A stretch of 64,000 nt of DNA from Clostridia bacterium (GTDB lineage Bacteria; Bacillota; Clostridia; UMGS1883): contig JAFTOF010000005.1 of assembly GCA_017451505.1 (NCBI GenBank), positions 1-64,000 of the forward strand. Direction: 5' to 3'. The position numbers were made by a program, and so were the translations under genes. The notes below the pieces were generated by a model, which was not told the origin of the DNA, did not search any database, and saw only the letters and a list, made by a program, of their open reading frames with translations. Positions 37,089-58,114 of the stretch are shown here, one piece after another (the stretch's first letter is position 1; each line of letters begins with the position of its first letter).

Positions 37089-37094
37089 TAAAAA

Positions 37095-37330
37095 TAGTGG
37101 TGATGAATGTGTGTAAGTAGGATTTGCACCGCACTTCAAAGAGAGGGGAAGTCATTGGGCTGTAAGCTTTCCCGTTGTGCACAGGTCTGAATTTCAGCAC
37201 AGGAGCCTTCTGCGAAAAGCTCTTGCGTTAAGCAGAACGTGATACTGCGTTAAGGTGTAAAAGTGCAAAGCTTTTGCTTTGAATAAGGGTGGTACCGCGA
37301 GAACTCTCGTCCCTTTGTGGGGTGAGGGTG
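37095..37330 (+). ncRNA. T-box riboswitch (phenylalanine)
   Basis: The invariant T-box AAGGGTGGTACCGCG is at 37285-37299, followed by the terminator arm around CTCTCGTCCCTT. Upstream lies a long stem I with AAGTAGG near 37115. The likely specifier is TTC at 37193-37195 in CTGAATTTCAGCAC, matching phenylalanine. Uncharged tRNA-Phe would stabilise the antiterminator and switch on pheST. Confidence 0.93.
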
Positions 37331-38414: not shown

Positions 38415-40775
38415 ATGCTTGTTTCAATGAATTGGATAAAAGAATATGTTGACCTTTCGGGTGAAGACCTTCAAAAGCTTATTATGAAGTTCACTCTTTC
38501 CACCGCAGAGGTTGAGGATATTTATATAAAAGGTGAGGAAGTAAAGAATGTAGTTGTTGGTGAAATTGTTTCCTTTGAAGCACACCCCAATTCCAAAAAG
38601 CTTCACATTCTTAAGGTGGACGGCGGAGACAGAATTTATGACTGCGTATGCGGTGCACCCAATGCAAGACTCGGTCTTAAGACGGCTTTTGCAAAGGTTG
38701 GAGGCAGTGTTCCCGGACTTGAGATTGCAAAAAGGGAAGTGGCAGGCTATGTTTCCGAGGGTATGTGCTGCAGCGAAGCAGAGCTTGGGCTGAGCGATGA
38801 AAACAGCGGAATCATGGAGCTTGACCCTTCATTTAAAAACGGAACAGACCTTAAGGAAATTTTTGATATTGACGACGTGGTTTTCGAGGTTGATAATAAA
38901 TCGCTTACAAATCGTCCCGACCTTTGGGGACATTACGGCATAGCACGTGAATTTGCCGCACTTACAAAAAAGCCTCTTAAACCGCTTTCCCTTACAGAGC
39001 CTGTATACGACGGCGATAAAAAAATCCCCGTAAAGGTTACGAGAGAAGACCTTGTGTACAGATATTCGTGTATAGAGGTATCCGATATTAAGGAAAGCGT
39101 AAGTCCCATGAATATGCGTATTCGCCTTTACTACTGCGGTATGCGGGGAATTAATCTGCTTGCAGACCTTACAAATTATATTATGCTGGAGCTTGGACAG
39201 CCCACACATGCATTTGATGCAAGAAAGATTGACTCAATCAAGGTTGGAACGCCCGACAAAGCAATGAAGTTTACAACTCTTGACACAGTTGAGAGGGATA
39301 TTGACACAGACACGCTTCTTATATACAATAACGATACACCCGTTGCCATTGCAGGTATCATGGGCGGTCTTGATTCCGAAATTGTGGACGGTACTACCTC
39401 TGTAGTACTTGAAAGTGCAAATTTTGACGGCGTAAGCGTCCGTAAGTCATCATCAAGACTGGGACTTCGTACCGATGCAAGTATGCGTTATGAGAAGATT
39501 CTTGACCCCGAGATTACAATTACTGCAATTAAGAGATTCCTTAATCTTCTTCTTGAGATTGCCCCCGATGCAAAGGTGTCATCCTGCATTACAGACGAGT
39601 ATACCAAAAAGTATGATGAAATAAGCCTTTCATTTACAAAGGCATATGTTGACAGGTACACAGGTATTGATATTCCCGATGAGCAAATACTTTCAACTCT
39701 TAATCTTCTGGGCTTTAATGCAAAGCTTAACGGGGAGGAGTTCAGCGTAACCGTTCCTAGCTGGAGAGCTACAAAGGACGTTACAATCAAGGCTGATGTT
39801 ATCGAAGAAATTACCCGTATTTACGGATATGATAACTTTGAAATCACCACAACAAAGAGTGCACTCTCTCCTGTAAGGGAAACTGTCATGCATCGTGACA
39901 GCGAACTTATCAAGGACATTTTAGTTCAGCGTTATATGATGAATGAGGTTCATTCTTATATCTGGTGCGACGGAAATAAGTACAAAAAGCTGGGCATAGA
40001 TGTTCCCGAAAACGTTACAATTCTTAACATTGCAACTCCCGAAAACGGTACAATTCGTAAGAGTATGCTTCCCACACTTCTTACCTTTGCATATGAGAAT
40101 AAGCAGTATGCTCCCTCATACGGACTTTTTGAAATAGGCAGAGTGGTAGACGGAGTAACGGCGGAAAATATCTGCGATGAAAGACAGAGATTGGGTGTTA
40201 CCCTCTTTGACAAAACTGCAAGTGAAAAAGAGCTTTATTTTAAAGCTGTGGAAATTATCAGATATATCACCATGCAACTTCGTCACAGCGAGCCTCAGTT
40301 TACAAGGGTTGCACCTATGTATAATTGGCAGCACCCCAAGAATACCTCAGAAATCTCTGTAAACGGACAGAAAATCGGTGTTCTTTGTACTCTTCATCCA
40401 TCAAATCTTAAAAAGATTGATAAGAATGCTGCGGTTGTATGTATTGAAATTGACATGGCAGATTTTGAAAAAGCCAAGGCAATGCCGCTTAAGTTTAATG
40501 AACCTTCAAAGTTCCCCGGAGTTGACTATGACCTCTCCATCGTGACAAACGGCAAAAAATATGAGGAAATTGCCACTGCATGGGAAAACGAAGAAATTCC
40601 CGAACTTGATGGCGTGAAGCTTGTAGACACATATGAGCTTGAGGGAGAAATGTCAATCACGCTGAGATTTGCTTTCTCTTCCAACGAAAGAACTCTTTCT
40701 ATGGAAGAAATTCAGCAGCACATCGACAAAATTATTGCAAACTTCAACAGGATTGGCGTAACTCCAAGAATATAA
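38415..40775 (+). CDS. pheT: Phenylalanyl-tRNA synthetase beta subunit
   Basis: A 786-residue β subunit. In order: the EMAP/tRNA-binding domain (about 40-150, with VVGEIVSFEAHPNSKKLHIL), the B3/B4 editing domain, the B5 domain, the catalytic-like core, and the C-terminal ferredoxin-fold anticodon-binding domain (ending MEEIQQHIDKIIANF). It partners PheS and edits Tyr-tRNA-Phe. Length is normal. It is followed by a strong terminator. Confidence 0.97.
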   Translation: MLVSMNWIKEYVDLSGEDLQKLIMKFTLSTAEVEDIYIKGEEVKNVVVGEIVSFEAHPNSKKLHILKVDGGDRIYDCVCGAPNARLGLKTAFAKVGGSVPGLEIAKREVAGYVSEGMCCSEAELGLSDENSGIMELDPSFKNGTDLKEIFDIDDVVFEVDNKSLTNRPDLWGHYGIAREFAALTKKPLKPLSLTEPVYDGDKKIPVKVTREDLVYRYSCIEVSDIKESVSPMNMRIRLYYCGMRGINLLADLTNYIMLELGQPTHAFDARKIDSIKVGTPDKAMKFTTLDTVERDIDTDTLLIYNNDTPVAIAGIMGGLDSEIVDGTTSVVLESANFDGVSVRKSSSRLGLRTDASMRYEKILDPEITITAIKRFLNLLLEIAPDAKVSSCITDEYTKKYDEISLSFTKAYVDRYTGIDIPDEQILSTLNLLGFNAKLNGEEFSVTVPSWRATKDVTIKADVIEEITRIYGYDNFEITTTKSALSPVRETVMHRDSELIKDILVQRYMMNEVHSYIWCDGNKYKKLGIDVPENVTILNIATPENGTIRKSMLPTLLTFAYENKQYAPSYGLFEIGRVVDGVTAENICDERQRLGVTLFDKTASEKELYFKAVEIIRYITMQLRHSEPQFTRVAPMYNWQHPKNTSEISVNGQKIGVLCTLHPSNLKKIDKNAAVVCIEIDMADFEKAKAMPLKFNEPSKFPGVDYDLSIVTNGKKYEEIATAWENEEIPELDGVKLVDTYELEGEMSITLRFAFSSNERTLSMEEIQQHIDKIIANFNRIGVTPRI

Positions 40776-43710: not shown

Positions 43711-44739
43711 ATGAGCAGAAAAAAGAAAAGTTTCATTTCAAAAATTTTTGCGGTAGCGGTTTTACTTGTTATTGCAACGCTTGCAATAGTGACTATCCCT
43801 GTGTTTTTGGAATATACAAGGGATAATTCTTCCGAGGTTTCTGTTACTGTGGAAATTCCAATGGGAGCGTCAGAGAAGCAAATAGCAAGTATTCTCAAGG
43901 AAAAAGGCGTAATTAATTATGAGCTTTCCTTTCGTATAAAGATGTATACTTCTCCATACCGCGGCAAGCTTAATTACGGTGTGTATACGCTGTATGAGGA
44001 AATGTGTCTTGAGGATATTCTGCGTACCCTTTCAAAGCCTGCAACTCTCGCTGAAAGTATTAAGCTTACAATCCCCGAAGGGTGGAGTGCAGAGAAAATT
44101 GCCGCAGAGTGTGAAAGAAAAAAGCTTTGTACTAAGGAAGAGTTTTTAAAGGTTTTAAAAGAGGAAGACTTTAATTACGGCTTTATTTCAGATATTCCGG
44201 AAAAACAGGGAGTTCGTTACAAGCTTGAGGGGTATTTATTCCCAAGCACCCATTATTTTGACACGGATGCTGATGCCTATGTTGTTATAGATACACTTTT
44301 AGGCGAATTTGAAAAGCAGTATGATAAAATAAAGAGCAAAAAGCCTGCGGATATGACAATGAACGAAGTGATTATCCGTGCTTCCCTTATTGAAAGAGAG
44401 GCAAAGTTGCCCGCTGAACGCAGGGTTATTTCGGGCGTTATACAAAACAGAATAGAGGAGGGAATGCTTCTTCAGATTGATGCCTCCGTTGTATATGCAA
44501 TTTCCGAGGGTATGTATGATGTGGACAGAGTGCTTTACAAGGATTTGGAAATTGATTCCCCCTATAACACATATAAATATCAGGGGCTTCCCGTTGGAGC
44601 AATATGCAGTCCGGGAATTAGCTCCATAGAAGCTGCGATGCAGCCTGAGAAGCATAATTATTTGTTTTATCACACAGACACGCAGAAGAATGACGGAAGT
44701 CATATATTCAGCGAAACCTTTGCACAGCATACAAGGTGA
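43711..44739 (+). CDS. mltG: Endolytic murein transglycosylase MltG
   Basis: A 342-residue YceG/MltG protein with one N-terminal membrane helix (about 8-30) and the extracytoplasmic catalytic domain. The catalytic Glu is in EVIIRASLIEREAK, and the C-terminus YLFYHTDTQKNDGSHIFSET is the family end. MltG cuts nascent glycan strands and sets their length. The DUF3006 gene overlaps at its upstream frame but starts 5 bp after this stop. Confidence 0.95.
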   Translation: MSRKKKSFISKIFAVAVLLVIATLAIVTIPVFLEYTRDNSSEVSVTVEIPMGASEKQIASILKEKGVINYELSFRIKMYTSPYRGKLNYGVYTLYEEMCLEDILRTLSKPATLAESIKLTIPEGWSAEKIAAECERKKLCTKEEFLKVLKEEDFNYGFISDIPEKQGVRYKLEGYLFPSTHYFDTDADAYVVIDTLLGEFEKQYDKIKSKKPADMTMNEVIIRASLIEREAKLPAERRVISGVIQNRIEEGMLLQIDASVVYAISEGMYDVDRVLYKDLEIDSPYNTYKYQGLPVGAICSPGISSIEAAMQPEKHNYLFYHTDTQKNDGSHIFSETFAQHTR

Positions 44740-44744
44740 TTTTT

Positions 44745-44972
44745 ATGAAAAAATATATTGTAGACAGGTTTGAGGAAGATTTTGTTGTTCTGGAAGAGGA
44801 AACAGGCGGAAGTATAAATATAAAAAGGGAACTTTTGCCCGATGCTAATAGAGGGGATGTCCTGACCGAAGAAAACGGGGCATTCATCATTGATGAACAG
44901 GAAACCCTTGAAAGAAAAAAACGAATTTCTGAAAAAATGAATAAACTGTTTGAAAAGAAGAAAAATTTATGA
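44745..44972 (+). CDS. DUF3006 domain small protein
   Basis: A 75-residue protein starting MKKYIVDRFEEDFVVLEEET, with DVLTEENGAFIIDEQETLER in the second half. It matches the short β-barrel-like DUF3006 family common in Clostridia; the function is unknown. AAGGTGAT just upstream favours ATG 44745 over the in-frame GTG 44736. The mgtE promoter (44950-44978) begins inside its last codons. Confidence 0.8.
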   Translation: MKKYIVDRFEEDFVVLEEETGGSINIKRELLPDANRGDVLTEENGAFIIDEQETLERKKRISEKMNKLFEKKKNL

Positions 44973-44978
44973 TAAAAT
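44950..44978 (+). promoter_or_regulatory. Promoter of the mgtE leader
   Basis: TTGAAA at 44950-44955, 17-nt spacer, TAAAAT at 44973-44978. It overlaps the end of the DUF3006 gene and would give a leader of about 155 nt before mgtE. Confidence 0.7.
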
Positions 44979-45010
44979 AAATTTATTAATTATAAAAAGA
45001 GGTGAGAAGA

Positions 45011-45091
45011 ATGGACGCAGGAGGAAGTAGTAAAATCGGACGAAGTAGACGGCAATCTGCGTCTGTTTTTCTGTTTGGATGCAGATTGTAG
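45011..45091 (+). CDS. Possible 26-codon leader peptide of mgtE
   Basis: ATG 45011 follows GAGGTGAG (44999-45006) at good spacing. The frame reads MDAGGSSKIGRSRRQSASVF and ends FGCRL with TAG 45089-45091. It spans both arms of two alternative hairpins, so ribosome position could choose between them. The basic SRRQ segment and lack of a family match are noted. The ribosome site is strong, but translation is unproven. Confidence 0.45.
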   Translation: MDAGGSSKIGRSRRQSASVFLFGCRL

Positions 45092-45134
45092 CCCCTTTGT
45101 CCCTCATAATTTTAATACTCAATGAAATGAGGGA
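45011..45134 (+). promoter_or_regulatory. Structured mgtE leader with competing hairpins
   Basis: ATGGACGCAG (45011-45020) can pair with CTGCGTCTGT (45057-45066), which runs into TTTTCTGTTT and looks like a terminator. ATCTGCGTC (45055-45063) can instead pair with GATGCAGAT (45078-45086). A third hairpin pairs TCCCTCAT (45100-45107) with ATGAGGGA (45127-45134) and buries the mgtE ribosome site GAGGG. I do not see the M-box consensus. It is probably a regulator of mgtE, perhaps sensing Mg2+. Confidence 0.6.
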
Positions 45135-45139
45135 TTTTT

Positions 45140-46492
45140 ATGTCAGAAAACAGAGATGCAGTTCTCAGCGAAATGCTTGTAAGTCTTATCCGTGGGAAGA
45201 AATACGCTTCCGTACGTGATGCAATGGAAACAATGCATGCTGCCGATATTGCGGCAGCACTGGGGGACTGTACAAAAGAACAGGTGCCGCTTTTATTCAG
45301 ATTACTACCCAAGGAGCTTGCGGCAGAAACCTTTTCCCAAATGGAGGAGGACAAAAAGGAGCTTTTGATTCAAAGCTTCAGTGACAGCGAACTTAAAGAA
45401 GTGGTTGACGAACTGTATGTGGACGATGCTGTTGACCTAGTTGAAGAAATGCCAGCAAGTGTTGTCAAAAGAATATTAAGGCAGGCAGACCCCGAAAAAA
45501 GAAAGCTTATAAATGAAATTTTAAAATATCCTGAGGACAGTGCAGGAAGCATCATGACTACCGAGTATGTCAGCCTCAGACCTGATATGACGGTGGAAGA
45601 CGCTATAAAGAGGATAAGAAGAACAGGTGTGGACAAGGAAACCATTAATACCTGCTATGTAACGGACAACAACCGTAAGCTTATCGGTATAGTTACGGTT
45701 CGTACGCTTCTTCTTGCAGAGGAAACGGATATTATGCAGGATATTATGACTGAGGACGTGATTTCTGCCCTCACTACCGATGACAGGGAAAAGGTTTCCT
45801 TGGATTTCGTAAAATATGACTTTTCCGCAATGCCCGTTGTAGATGAGGAAAACCGCCTTGTGGGTATTGTGACGATTGACGACGTAATTGATGTTTTGCA
45901 GGAGGAAACCACGGAAGATATTGAAAAGATGGGTGCTATCACACCTCTTGAAAAGCCATATCTTAAAACGGGAGCTTTGGAAATATTCAAAAGCCGTATC
46001 CCGTGGCTTCTCATACTTATGTTTTCCGCAACCTTTACAGGGGGAATTATCTCCTATTATGAGAGTGCCCTGACGGGATTTCCCGTGCTTATTGCAAGTA
46101 TTCCCATGCTTATGGCGACAGGCGGCAACTGTGGAAGTCAGGCGTCAGTTACCGTGATTCGAGGACTTTCAATAGGTGAAATAGAGTTTTCGGATGTACT
46201 GCGGGTTGTGTGGAAGGAAATCCGTGTAGCACTTCTTTGCGGAATTACACTGGCACTCCTGAATTTTCTGTTTCTTATTTTTGTCAGCGGGCAAAGTGTG
46301 GCAGTAGCGGCGGTAATTTGCCTTACACTGCTTTCAACGGTTACTGCGGCAAAAGCCGTAGGCTGTGTGCTTCCTATGGTTGCAAGCAAAATCGGATTTG
46401 ACCCCGCAGTAATGGCAAGTCCGTTCATTACCACAATCATAGATGCTTTATCACTGATAATTTATGTTAATATAGCAATGAGTTTATTATAA
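45140..46492 (+). CDS. mgtE: Magnesium transporter MgtE
   Basis: A 450-residue MgtE channel. It has the N-terminal superhelical domain (about 30-130, with LLPKELAAETFSQMEEDKKE), a CBS pair (about 135-255, with MTTEYVSLRPDMTVEDAI), and five membrane helices (285-450). The pore helix contains PMLMATGGNCGSQASV and the end is ALSLIIYVNIAMSLL. CBS-bound Mg2+ closes the channel at high internal Mg2+. GAGGG at 45129-45133 is its ribosome site. Length is normal. Confidence 0.96.
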   Translation: MSENRDAVLSEMLVSLIRGKKYASVRDAMETMHAADIAAALGDCTKEQVPLLFRLLPKELAAETFSQMEEDKKELLIQSFSDSELKEVVDELYVDDAVDLVEEMPASVVKRILRQADPEKRKLINEILKYPEDSAGSIMTTEYVSLRPDMTVEDAIKRIRRTGVDKETINTCYVTDNNRKLIGIVTVRTLLLAEETDIMQDIMTEDVISALTTDDREKVSLDFVKYDFSAMPVVDEENRLVGIVTIDDVIDVLQEETTEDIEKMGAITPLEKPYLKTGALEIFKSRIPWLLILMFSATFTGGIISYYESALTGFPVLIASIPMLMATGGNCGSQASVTVIRGLSIGEIEFSDVLRVVWKEIRVALLCGITLALLNFLFLIFVSGQSVAVAAVICLTLLSTVTAAKAVGCVLPMVASKIGFDPAVMASPFITTIIDALSLIIYVNIAMSLL

Positions 46493-56799: not shown

Positions 56800-57951
56800 A
56801 TGAAAAGATTTTTTGCACTTTGTGTTGCATTGATTATTGTGTTATCTTTATTTAGTGCTTGCGGAGGCGATGCTCCCACAGGTGACACAAAGCTTGATAA
56901 AGAGATTGTGGGAACTGTAAACGGTGTGGAAATTACACAGGCAGATTACAATCTGGTTTACAGAACGATGTATGATAATGTTTCTCAGTATGAGCAGTAT
57001 TACGGAGCAGATTGGTTTGTTCAGTCATATGATGGTATAAACACCTTAGGTCAGATGATAAGTCAGAATACGGCTTCGCAGCTTGAAGTAATGATAGCGG
57101 CATCGGCATTGGCTAAGGAAAAGTATGGCATAGAAGAAGACAGTAAAGAAATCAAAAAAGCCGTTGATAAAGAATACAAGGCGTTTAAAGAGAATTTCAG
57201 TACTGACAGTGAATATGAAAAGTTTTTAAGCGAAGCAAAAACTACTGACAAGGCTGTAAAAAACAGTATCAGAATGTCAGAGGTTATGGTTCGTTTGCAG
57301 GAAAAAATTACTGCAAAAGGCGAAGAAGCATATGTTGACGACGAGGAGGCCTTAGAGGGTTTTGCGGAAGAAAAGATGCGTGTTCAGCATATCCTTATTT
57401 CTACTCAGGAGCAGACAGACTCTGAAACAGGCGATGTAATTCCTGCAAGAAGCGATAAAGAAGCTCTTAAAATAGTAGACGAGGTTATTGGCAAGATTGC
57501 CAAGGGTGAGGATTTCGACTCTCTTATAGACAAGTATGATGAAGACCCCGGAATGGAAAGCGGAAAATTCTATGTGTTCGGCACAGGCGAAATGGTTCAG
57601 GAATTTGAGGACGCATCCAAAGCTCTTAAGGTAGGAGAATATACCAAGCAGGGTGTAAAAACAGACTATGGTTATCATATTATCAAGAAATATGATGTAA
57701 ATGCCTCTCTTCCTGAGTTTACGGAATATAAAGAAAATCTTTTGAATCAGAAGCTTGGCGAGGTTTTAAATTCCAAAGCAGAAGATTTTGAAATCAACTG
57801 GAAAACAGATAAGCTTGATAAATATGTATTCAATTGGGTTAATGAAATAAGAAGTGCCAAGGGTGCTGAGCCTATCACGGAAGAAATGATGGGGTTGAAC
57901 CTTCCTACAGAGGAAGAGTTAAAGAGCGAAACGAAAAAAGAAAATGAATAA
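56800..57951 (+). CDS. prsA: PrsA-type peptidyl-prolyl isomerase lipoprotein
   Basis: A 383-residue extracytoplasmic foldase. The lipoprotein signal ends in LFSAC. An N-terminal SurA-like chaperone region follows (VGTVNGVEITQADYNLVYRT), then the parvulin/PpiC domain from EEKMRVQHILISTQEQ to GYHIIKKYD (about 185-305). It helps fold secreted proteins. AGGAGG (56788-56792) lies 7 nt before ATG 56800; ATG 56794 is too close. It needs Lgt (encoded at 23238) for lipidation. Confidence 0.9.
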   Translation: MKRFFALCVALIIVLSLFSACGGDAPTGDTKLDKEIVGTVNGVEITQADYNLVYRTMYDNVSQYEQYYGADWFVQSYDGINTLGQMISQNTASQLEVMIAASALAKEKYGIEEDSKEIKKAVDKEYKAFKENFSTDSEYEKFLSEAKTTDKAVKNSIRMSEVMVRLQEKITAKGEEAYVDDEEALEGFAEEKMRVQHILISTQEQTDSETGDVIPARSDKEALKIVDEVIGKIAKGEDFDSLIDKYDEDPGMESGKFYVFGTGEMVQEFEDASKALKVGEYTKQGVKTDYGYHIIKKYDVNASLPEFTEYKENLLNQKLGEVLNSKAEDFEINWKTDKLDKYVFNWVNEIRSAKGAEPITEEMMGLNLPTEEELKSETKKENE

Positions 57952-57953
57952 CG

Positions 57954-58093
57954 ATTCTTCGGGGTTGGGTGAAATTCCCTACCGGCGGTAATGGCAGAAG
58001 CCTGAGTCCGCGAGCCTTAAAAGGTTGATGCAGTGAGATTCTGCAACCGACGGTTGAGCTATATTATGGCTAAAGTCCGGATGAGAGAAGAAT
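57954..58093 (+). ncRNA. FMN riboswitch (RFN element)
   Basis: P1 pairs ATTCTTC (57954-57960) with GAAGAAT (58087-58093). The conserved RFN blocks GGGTGAAATTCCCTACCGGC, GAGTCCGCGAGC, TGAGATTCTGCAACCGACGG and AAAGTCCGGATGAGAGAAG are all visible. It controls ribU through the terminator downstream. Confidence 0.97.
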
Positions 58094-58114
58094 GTATGTG
58101 TTTTTAAATACAGC

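Follow-up and report, generated by a model that had tools for sequence, protein, structure and literature searches.

Enterobacteria are known to control Mg2+ uptake through leader peptides, and the RNA control described in the Bacillota is the M-box riboswitch. In Salmonella, translation of the short mgtQ, mgtP, mgtM and mgtL ORFs of mgtCBR and mgtA selects between hairpins and so controls a Mg2+ transporter (PMC8092293, PMC3641672), and in mgtQ the residues Asp2 and Glu5 destabilise the ribosome, thereby freeing the mgtB ribosome site (PMC8092293). The M-box (ykoK leader, RF00380) has no leader ORF, its aptamer sensing Mg2+ without ribosomes. The mgtE motif SRC-65-1 (NAR 2024), a proposed four-stem cis-regulatory RNA reported exclusively from Thioalkalivibrio, holds the mgtE Shine-Dalgarno (SD) and AUG in a stem (PMC11109978), and in Mycobacterium tuberculosis an M-box Mg2+ riboswitch controls a conserved small ORF behind it, uORF2, with an SD/anti-SD/anti-anti-SD cascade (PMC12810186).

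The leader described here precedes mgtE in a 64,000-nucleotide stretch of DNA from a Clostridia bacterium (contig JAFTOF010000005.1, hereafter the window). It resembles the Salmonella leaders in that translation of a short ORF would choose between hairpins and control a Mg2+ transporter, and it shares Asp at codon 2 with mgtQ (PMC8092293). No sequence relation to mgtP, mgtQ or mgtL was seen. Whereas mgtQ is an intergenic ORF of 8 codons and mgtP is proline-rich, the Bacillota leader ORF spans 21-45 codons in front of mgtE or mgtA, its peptide has one acidic residue where the known leader peptides that sense Mg2+ have an acidic/proline run, and, unlike the Salmonella ORFs, its own start appears to be sequestered by its distal codons. 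SRC-65-1, likewise an RNA before mgtE, is set apart by its description, which includes no leader ORF (PMC11109978), and the M. tuberculosis uORF2, similarly a conserved small ORF linked to a Mg2+ riboswitch, is restricted to mycobacteria, has a conserved proline and encodes a peptide unlike MDAGSSSG..GRS (PMC12810186). These bacteria also have the M-box before mgtE, mgtA and corA, and in 9 loci it stands directly upstream of the leader element. A search of open-access papers turned up no earlier description of the element.

The features of the window leader, which is 155 nt long and carries a 26-codon ORF with three overlapping hairpins, are collected in Table 1. The promoter matches the consensus at 10 of 12 positions and has a TG before its -10 element, in a consensus scan for which 1.5 such sites are expected by chance in the region. 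Promoter, ORF with ribosome site and all three hairpins lie essentially where the initial annotation had placed them: the first hairpin (P1) is longer than it had proposed, the second (P2) shares the central bases as described, its 5' arm using those of the P1 3' arm and thus competing with P1, and the third (P3) does contain the mgtE ribosome site. To these are added two long-range pairings, A:A' and B:B', between segments of the ORF and segments that follow its stop codon. The minimum-free-energy fold of the window leader contains both P1 and P3, and the leader folds at -40.3 kcal/mol compared with -31.3 kcal/mol for shuffled sequences (z -2.5). The conserved ORF and pairing pattern in dozens of relatives are more telling than this z-score.

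Table 1. Positions in the window of the mgtE leader, its pairing segments and its neighbouring genes.
Feature	Position	Strand	Remarks
DUF3006 gene	44745-44972		Upstream neighbour of the mgtE leader
Promoter, sigma-70-type, TTGAAA-17-TAAAAT	44950-44978	+	Located where the upstream DUF3006 gene ends
SD1, leader ORF Shine-Dalgarno, GAGGTG	44999-45004	+	From sequence; conserved across the 36-leader alignment
P1 5' arm (spacer, AUG, leader codons 1-4)	45005-45021	+	Pairs with 45056-45072, 17 contiguous pairs
Leader ORF, 26 codons, MDAGGSSKIGRSRRQSASVFLFGCRL	45011-45091	+	Conserved in 66-73 non-redundant leaders
A, leader codons 6-9	45026-45035	+	9/10 pairs with A' 45110-45119
B, GGACGAAG, codons G-R-S	45038-45045	+	8/8 pairs with B' 45095-45102; same duplex region as the A:A' swap test
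P2, distal-ORF hairpin	45052-45089	+	45052-45065 with 45076-45089, 14 pairs
P1 3' arm (distal ORF codons with T-run)	45056-45072	+	Pairs with 45005-45021
B', CTTTGTCC	45095-45102	+	Overlaps the start of the P3 anti-SD arm
P3, predicted to sequester the mgtE SD	45100-45134	+	45100-45107 with 45127-45134, 8/8 pairs; formed in the minimum-free-energy fold
A', TTTTAATACT	45110-45119	+	In the P3 loop
SD2, mgtE Shine-Dalgarno, GAGGG	45129-45133	+	From sequence
mgtE, magnesium transporter, 450 aa	45140-46492	+	TIGR00400, 457 bits (cut-off 233); Pfam MgtE, MgtE_N, CBS

The window leader has no match in Rfam, Pfam or NCBIfam, and the leader peptides gave no credible match to NCBIfam or Pfam. The M-box, to which the initial annotation could not match the leader either, was absent from the window at the gathering score and from positions 44700-45400 at E-values up to 10, while M-box positive controls were detected in other loci by the same Rfam scan. 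Permissive E-values added chance matches alone, such as STnc40. All Rfam matches in the scanned regions are T-box, FMN, M-box or a single tRNA and lie elsewhere than the leader; in the window they include a T-box leader at 37094-37317 (+; RF00230, 107 bits), lying about 1.1 kb ahead of a pheT-like ORF at 38415, and an FMN riboswitch at 57951-58096 (+; RF00050, 101 bits).

The association of the element with Mg2+ importers was established with a sequence-only model of the 5' half of the ORF, searched against whole genomes blind to neighbouring genes (E <= 0.001), which gave 32 matches in 391 genomes of the class, 2 (one new) among 118 genomes from another order and 14 (13 new) among 398 genomes of the phylum. 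These represent 46 distinct loci: 35 precede mgtE and 8 precede mgtA, which encodes a magnesium-translocating P-type ATPase (TIGR01524). The remaining 3 fall within unrelated coding sequence and were dropped as chance matches, and 43 of the 46 matches thus precede a Mg2+ importer gene. MgtE and MgtA belong to unrelated transporter families that do the same job. Given this specificity for Mg2+ importers, the element is best read as a new leader-peptide system for Mg2+ uptake. The initial annotation had suggested such a system as a possibility, and neither of the outcomes that it named as refuting, a match to an Rfam family or a lack of conservation, came about; the importer specificity, the ORF and the helices hold up well, and the Mg2+ response itself is suggested by the company the element keeps.

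That company includes the M-box, which lies immediately upstream of the leader in all 8 mgtA loci and in one mgtE locus, an arrangement in which a single mRNA presumably carries two Mg2+ sensors one behind the other. In three of these tandems (the mgtE locus and two of the mgtA loci) an apparent terminator hairpin stands between M-box and leader. Four mgtE orthologues have an M-box in place of the leader element, and in two genomes whose mgtE carries the leader element an M-box precedes a corA-like gene. In the assembled contigs of the window's own genome, which is about 78% complete, no M-box was found. Mutual exclusion of the two elements per genome was not seen: both occur in 5 of the 391 genomes against about 7 expected, tandems accounting for three of the five. 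Gene association, M-box tandems and replacement by the M-box together point to a leader that responds to Mg2+, and the direction of the response would follow from the function of the importers. Between the upstream gene and the leader, six mgtE loci share a conserved hairpin, (A)GG(A/G)CTGTTC...GAATGG(T/C)CCTTTTGTGTC, which is probably the terminator of the upstream gene.

The mgtE relatives that were compared came from 60 relative genomes together with GTDB contigs, and the same leader ORF lies directly upstream of about 60 of them, differing in length by in-frame indels only. Its consensus is MD-A-G-S-S-S-G-x(2-5)-G-R-S: an N-terminus MDAG[GS][SN][SN]G is followed by an in-frame G-R-S coded GGN-CGA-AGT and then by a variable tail. 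Several lines of evidence indicate that it is translated. The SD and the start codon are present in every relative's leader; all 73 leaders have frame 0 open over 20 codons, compared with 38 and 11 leaders for the remaining two frames; GGNCGA occurs at five different distances from the ATG and is in frame in all 55 cases; and third codon positions are more variable than first and second ones (p 0.006-0.014, column permutation). The Arg codon of the G-R pair is CGA in 54 of 57 leaders, whereas CGA makes up 5-7% of Arg codons elsewhere (in window genes and genes downstream of the leaders). Codon 2 is Asp in 64 of 66 leaders, with one Glu and one Asn, and codon 4 is sometimes acidic (MDADSS, MDAENS), the peptide having no acidic/proline run. 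Related leaders share ancestry and are not mutually independent, so that raw counts overstate the number of evolutionary events; safer figures come from the five classes of spacing and from the swap tests described below. A uORF attenuator is characterised by a short ORF, complete with SD, start and stop, that is conserved in front of one functional gene class, as is the case here, and the ORF as well as the competing helices are kept in relatives; the element, its coding character and its pairing are well supported.

Two further observations concern variant peptides. Divergent ORFs before five mgtE genes, among them MKSDSHNCSSDSAPGRS, MDAYPGRC, MDAHPGRS and MDADSCSRD, retain G-R-S or Asp2 at other spacings and perhaps belong to a wider family. 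Four of the mgtA leaders share a second conserved peptide block, ICNMTL, the RNA of which (TATATGTAATATGACAT in L160) pairs perfectly or near-perfectly with the post-stop region.

P1 joins the region from SD1 to codon 3 with the distal ORF. Across 73 leaders this pairing averages -21.8 kcal/mol in native combinations and -17.2 kcal/mol when distal ORFs are exchanged between leaders (2000 permutations, sd 0.29), and it beats the shuffled mean in 70 of the 73. With the AUG-GAC core fixed in register and gaps disallowed, spacer positions -1 to -7 are paired in 62% of native and 48% of swapped combinations (sd 1.9), several standard pair types occurring at most positions; GGATCAGGATGGACGC with GCGTTCATCCTGTTCC and GTGAGAAGAATGGAC with GTCCATTCTTCTCAC are examples of this covariation. 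The T-run behind the first hairpin pairs with the A/G-rich spacer between SD1 and AUG. On these comparisons P1 is a helix that closes the start of the leader ORF, the T-run of the window being read as the complement of the A-rich spacer. P2 appears more weakly supported than P1 and A:A'; folding of the distal ORF is stabler than that of shuffles, with a mean z of -1.56 over the 73 leaders.

The long-range pairing was treated in the same manner. For the pairing of codons 3-18 with the post-stop region, native combinations average -28.8 kcal/mol and swapped ones -24.3 kcal/mol (sd 0.46); none of 2000 permutations reached the native value, and the A:A' helix is retained with wholly different sequences in L134 (GGCACAAAATCTGA:TCAGATTTTGTGTC), L128 (GCATAAGCC:GGCTTATGTC) and L160 (TATATGTAATATGACAT:ATGTCCTATTACATATG). 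In about half of the leaders the post-stop segment doubles as the anti-Shine-Dalgarno of the importer (P3): A' and the anti-SD2 strand overlap by 2.5 nt where 0.86 is expected; the overlap reaches 3 nt or more in 33 of 64 leaders and falls short of that in about half. Opening SD2 costs 4.6 kcal/mol when the leader is free and 7.5 kcal/mol when codons 1-17 and SD1 are covered, a difference exceeding 0.5 in 57 of 71 leaders (p 6e-10), and 5.85 kcal/mol when the proximal ORF codons are shuffled (p 2e-5); the native codons therefore ease the opening of SD2, and a ribosome on them undoes this. At folding equilibrium the corresponding difference is significant and small (mean unpaired value of SD2 0.19 for the free leader and 0.15 once the ORF is covered), so that opening costs were used as the test of switching; as SD2 is mostly paired in both equilibrium states, switching would have to occur during transcription or amount to a modest change. 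In the window's own leader A:A' is not significant alone: SD2 opening costs 4.7 natively and 4.6 and 5.2 with shuffled codons. The native codons thus have no advantage over shuffled ones here, and the argument for A:A' is carried by the family. In the window's genus A' sits in the P3 loop and not in a P3 arm. Mutually exclusive helices linking the ORF to the expression platform are accordingly found family-wide and are weak for the window's own A:A'.

We consider it reasonably probable that the element is a leader-peptide translational attenuator controlling Mg2+ import. The start region (SD1 spacer, AUG and codons 1-3) can pair with the ORF's own distal codons as P1, and proximal codons 3-15 with the segment just behind the stop codon as A/B:B'/A'; because this post-stop segment serves both in about half of the leaders, A/B:B'/A' and P3 compete. 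With ample Mg2+, ribosomes would load on SD1, translate the leader and cover codons 1-17, keeping A from A', so that A' would close SD2 via P3 and little transporter would be made. The importer should be on at low Mg2+, and low Mg2+ should therefore cut leader initiation or cause early drop-off: joining of the 30S and 50S subunits, or early elongation, may fail on the leader when cytoplasmic Mg2+ is low, the near-invariant Asp2 and the conserved rare CGA codon being candidate determinants of this failure and the latter possibly contributing a pause. Without ribosomes, P1 would shut the leader start, A/B:B'/A' would form, SD2 would be freed and the importer made. In the mgtA tandems, the M-box would gate transcription first and the leader would then gate translation.

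An opposite use of the ribosome deserves weight, unlikely as we hold it to be. A ribosome stalling or falling off in the distal ORF, or at G-R(CGA)-S, would block P1 and P2 and let A:A' form, and leader translation would be required for importer expression, as it is for Salmonella mgtQ and mgtP. Reuse of the leader start, which needs P1 to be melted by a ribosome, would fit this, as would the conservation of CGA where ordinary genes avoid it and that of Asp2 (64 of 66), since mgtQ needs Asp2 and Glu5 (PMC8092293); however, A is part of the proximal codons over which this ribosome would be sitting, and covering codons 1-17 makes SD2 harder, not easier, to open in those 57 of 71 leaders. Much less probable is a Mg2+ riboswitch made of RNA only, in which a P1 and A:A' pseudoknot would fold around Mg2+ and the ORF would be incidental or a regulated output. 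The two helices together would make a pseudoknot and several leader nucleotides are conserved (GGNCGAAGT), but the signs of translation and of reading-frame selection are clear, a conserved unpaired core is absent outside the ORF, and an A:A' stabilised by Mg2+ would have the importer switched on when Mg2+ is high, which is the wrong direction. The least probable reading, classical transcription attenuation with the first hairpin as intrinsic terminator (as the initial annotation had it) and P2 as antiterminator, can point to the TTTTT behind that hairpin and to one terminator-like site scored here against 0.3 expected by chance, yet the hairpin sequesters the leader's own SD and AUG, the T-run belongs to the P1 helix with the SD1-AUG spacer as its partner, and in relatives this 3' arm covaries with the spacer (GGATCAGGATGGACGC with GCGTTCATCCTGTTCC), often with no T-run at all.

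The element is probably a new kind of switch that turns magnesium uptake on and off. A fuller form of the attenuator reading, in which the translating ribosome on the conserved leader peptide, with its Asp2 and slow CGA, reads cytoplasmic Mg2+ and sets the translation of MgtE or MgtA, in series with the M-box at mgtA, is put forward tentatively, as a proposition with nearly even chances. Many uncultured and gut Clostridia carry the element before mgtE, and elsewhere in the phylum it stands before mgtA; it is unnamed in the papers and family libraries searched, and its description provides the annotation of a short ORF that will usually escape gene finders. It makes testable the idea of the ribosome as a general Mg2+ sensor, used more than once in evolution with different peptides, and that of two Mg2+ sensors on one mRNA splitting the work between transcription and translation; if the ribosome-based sensor reading is true, a single mgtA mRNA would carry two independent Mg2+ sensors, one acting on transcription and the other on translation.
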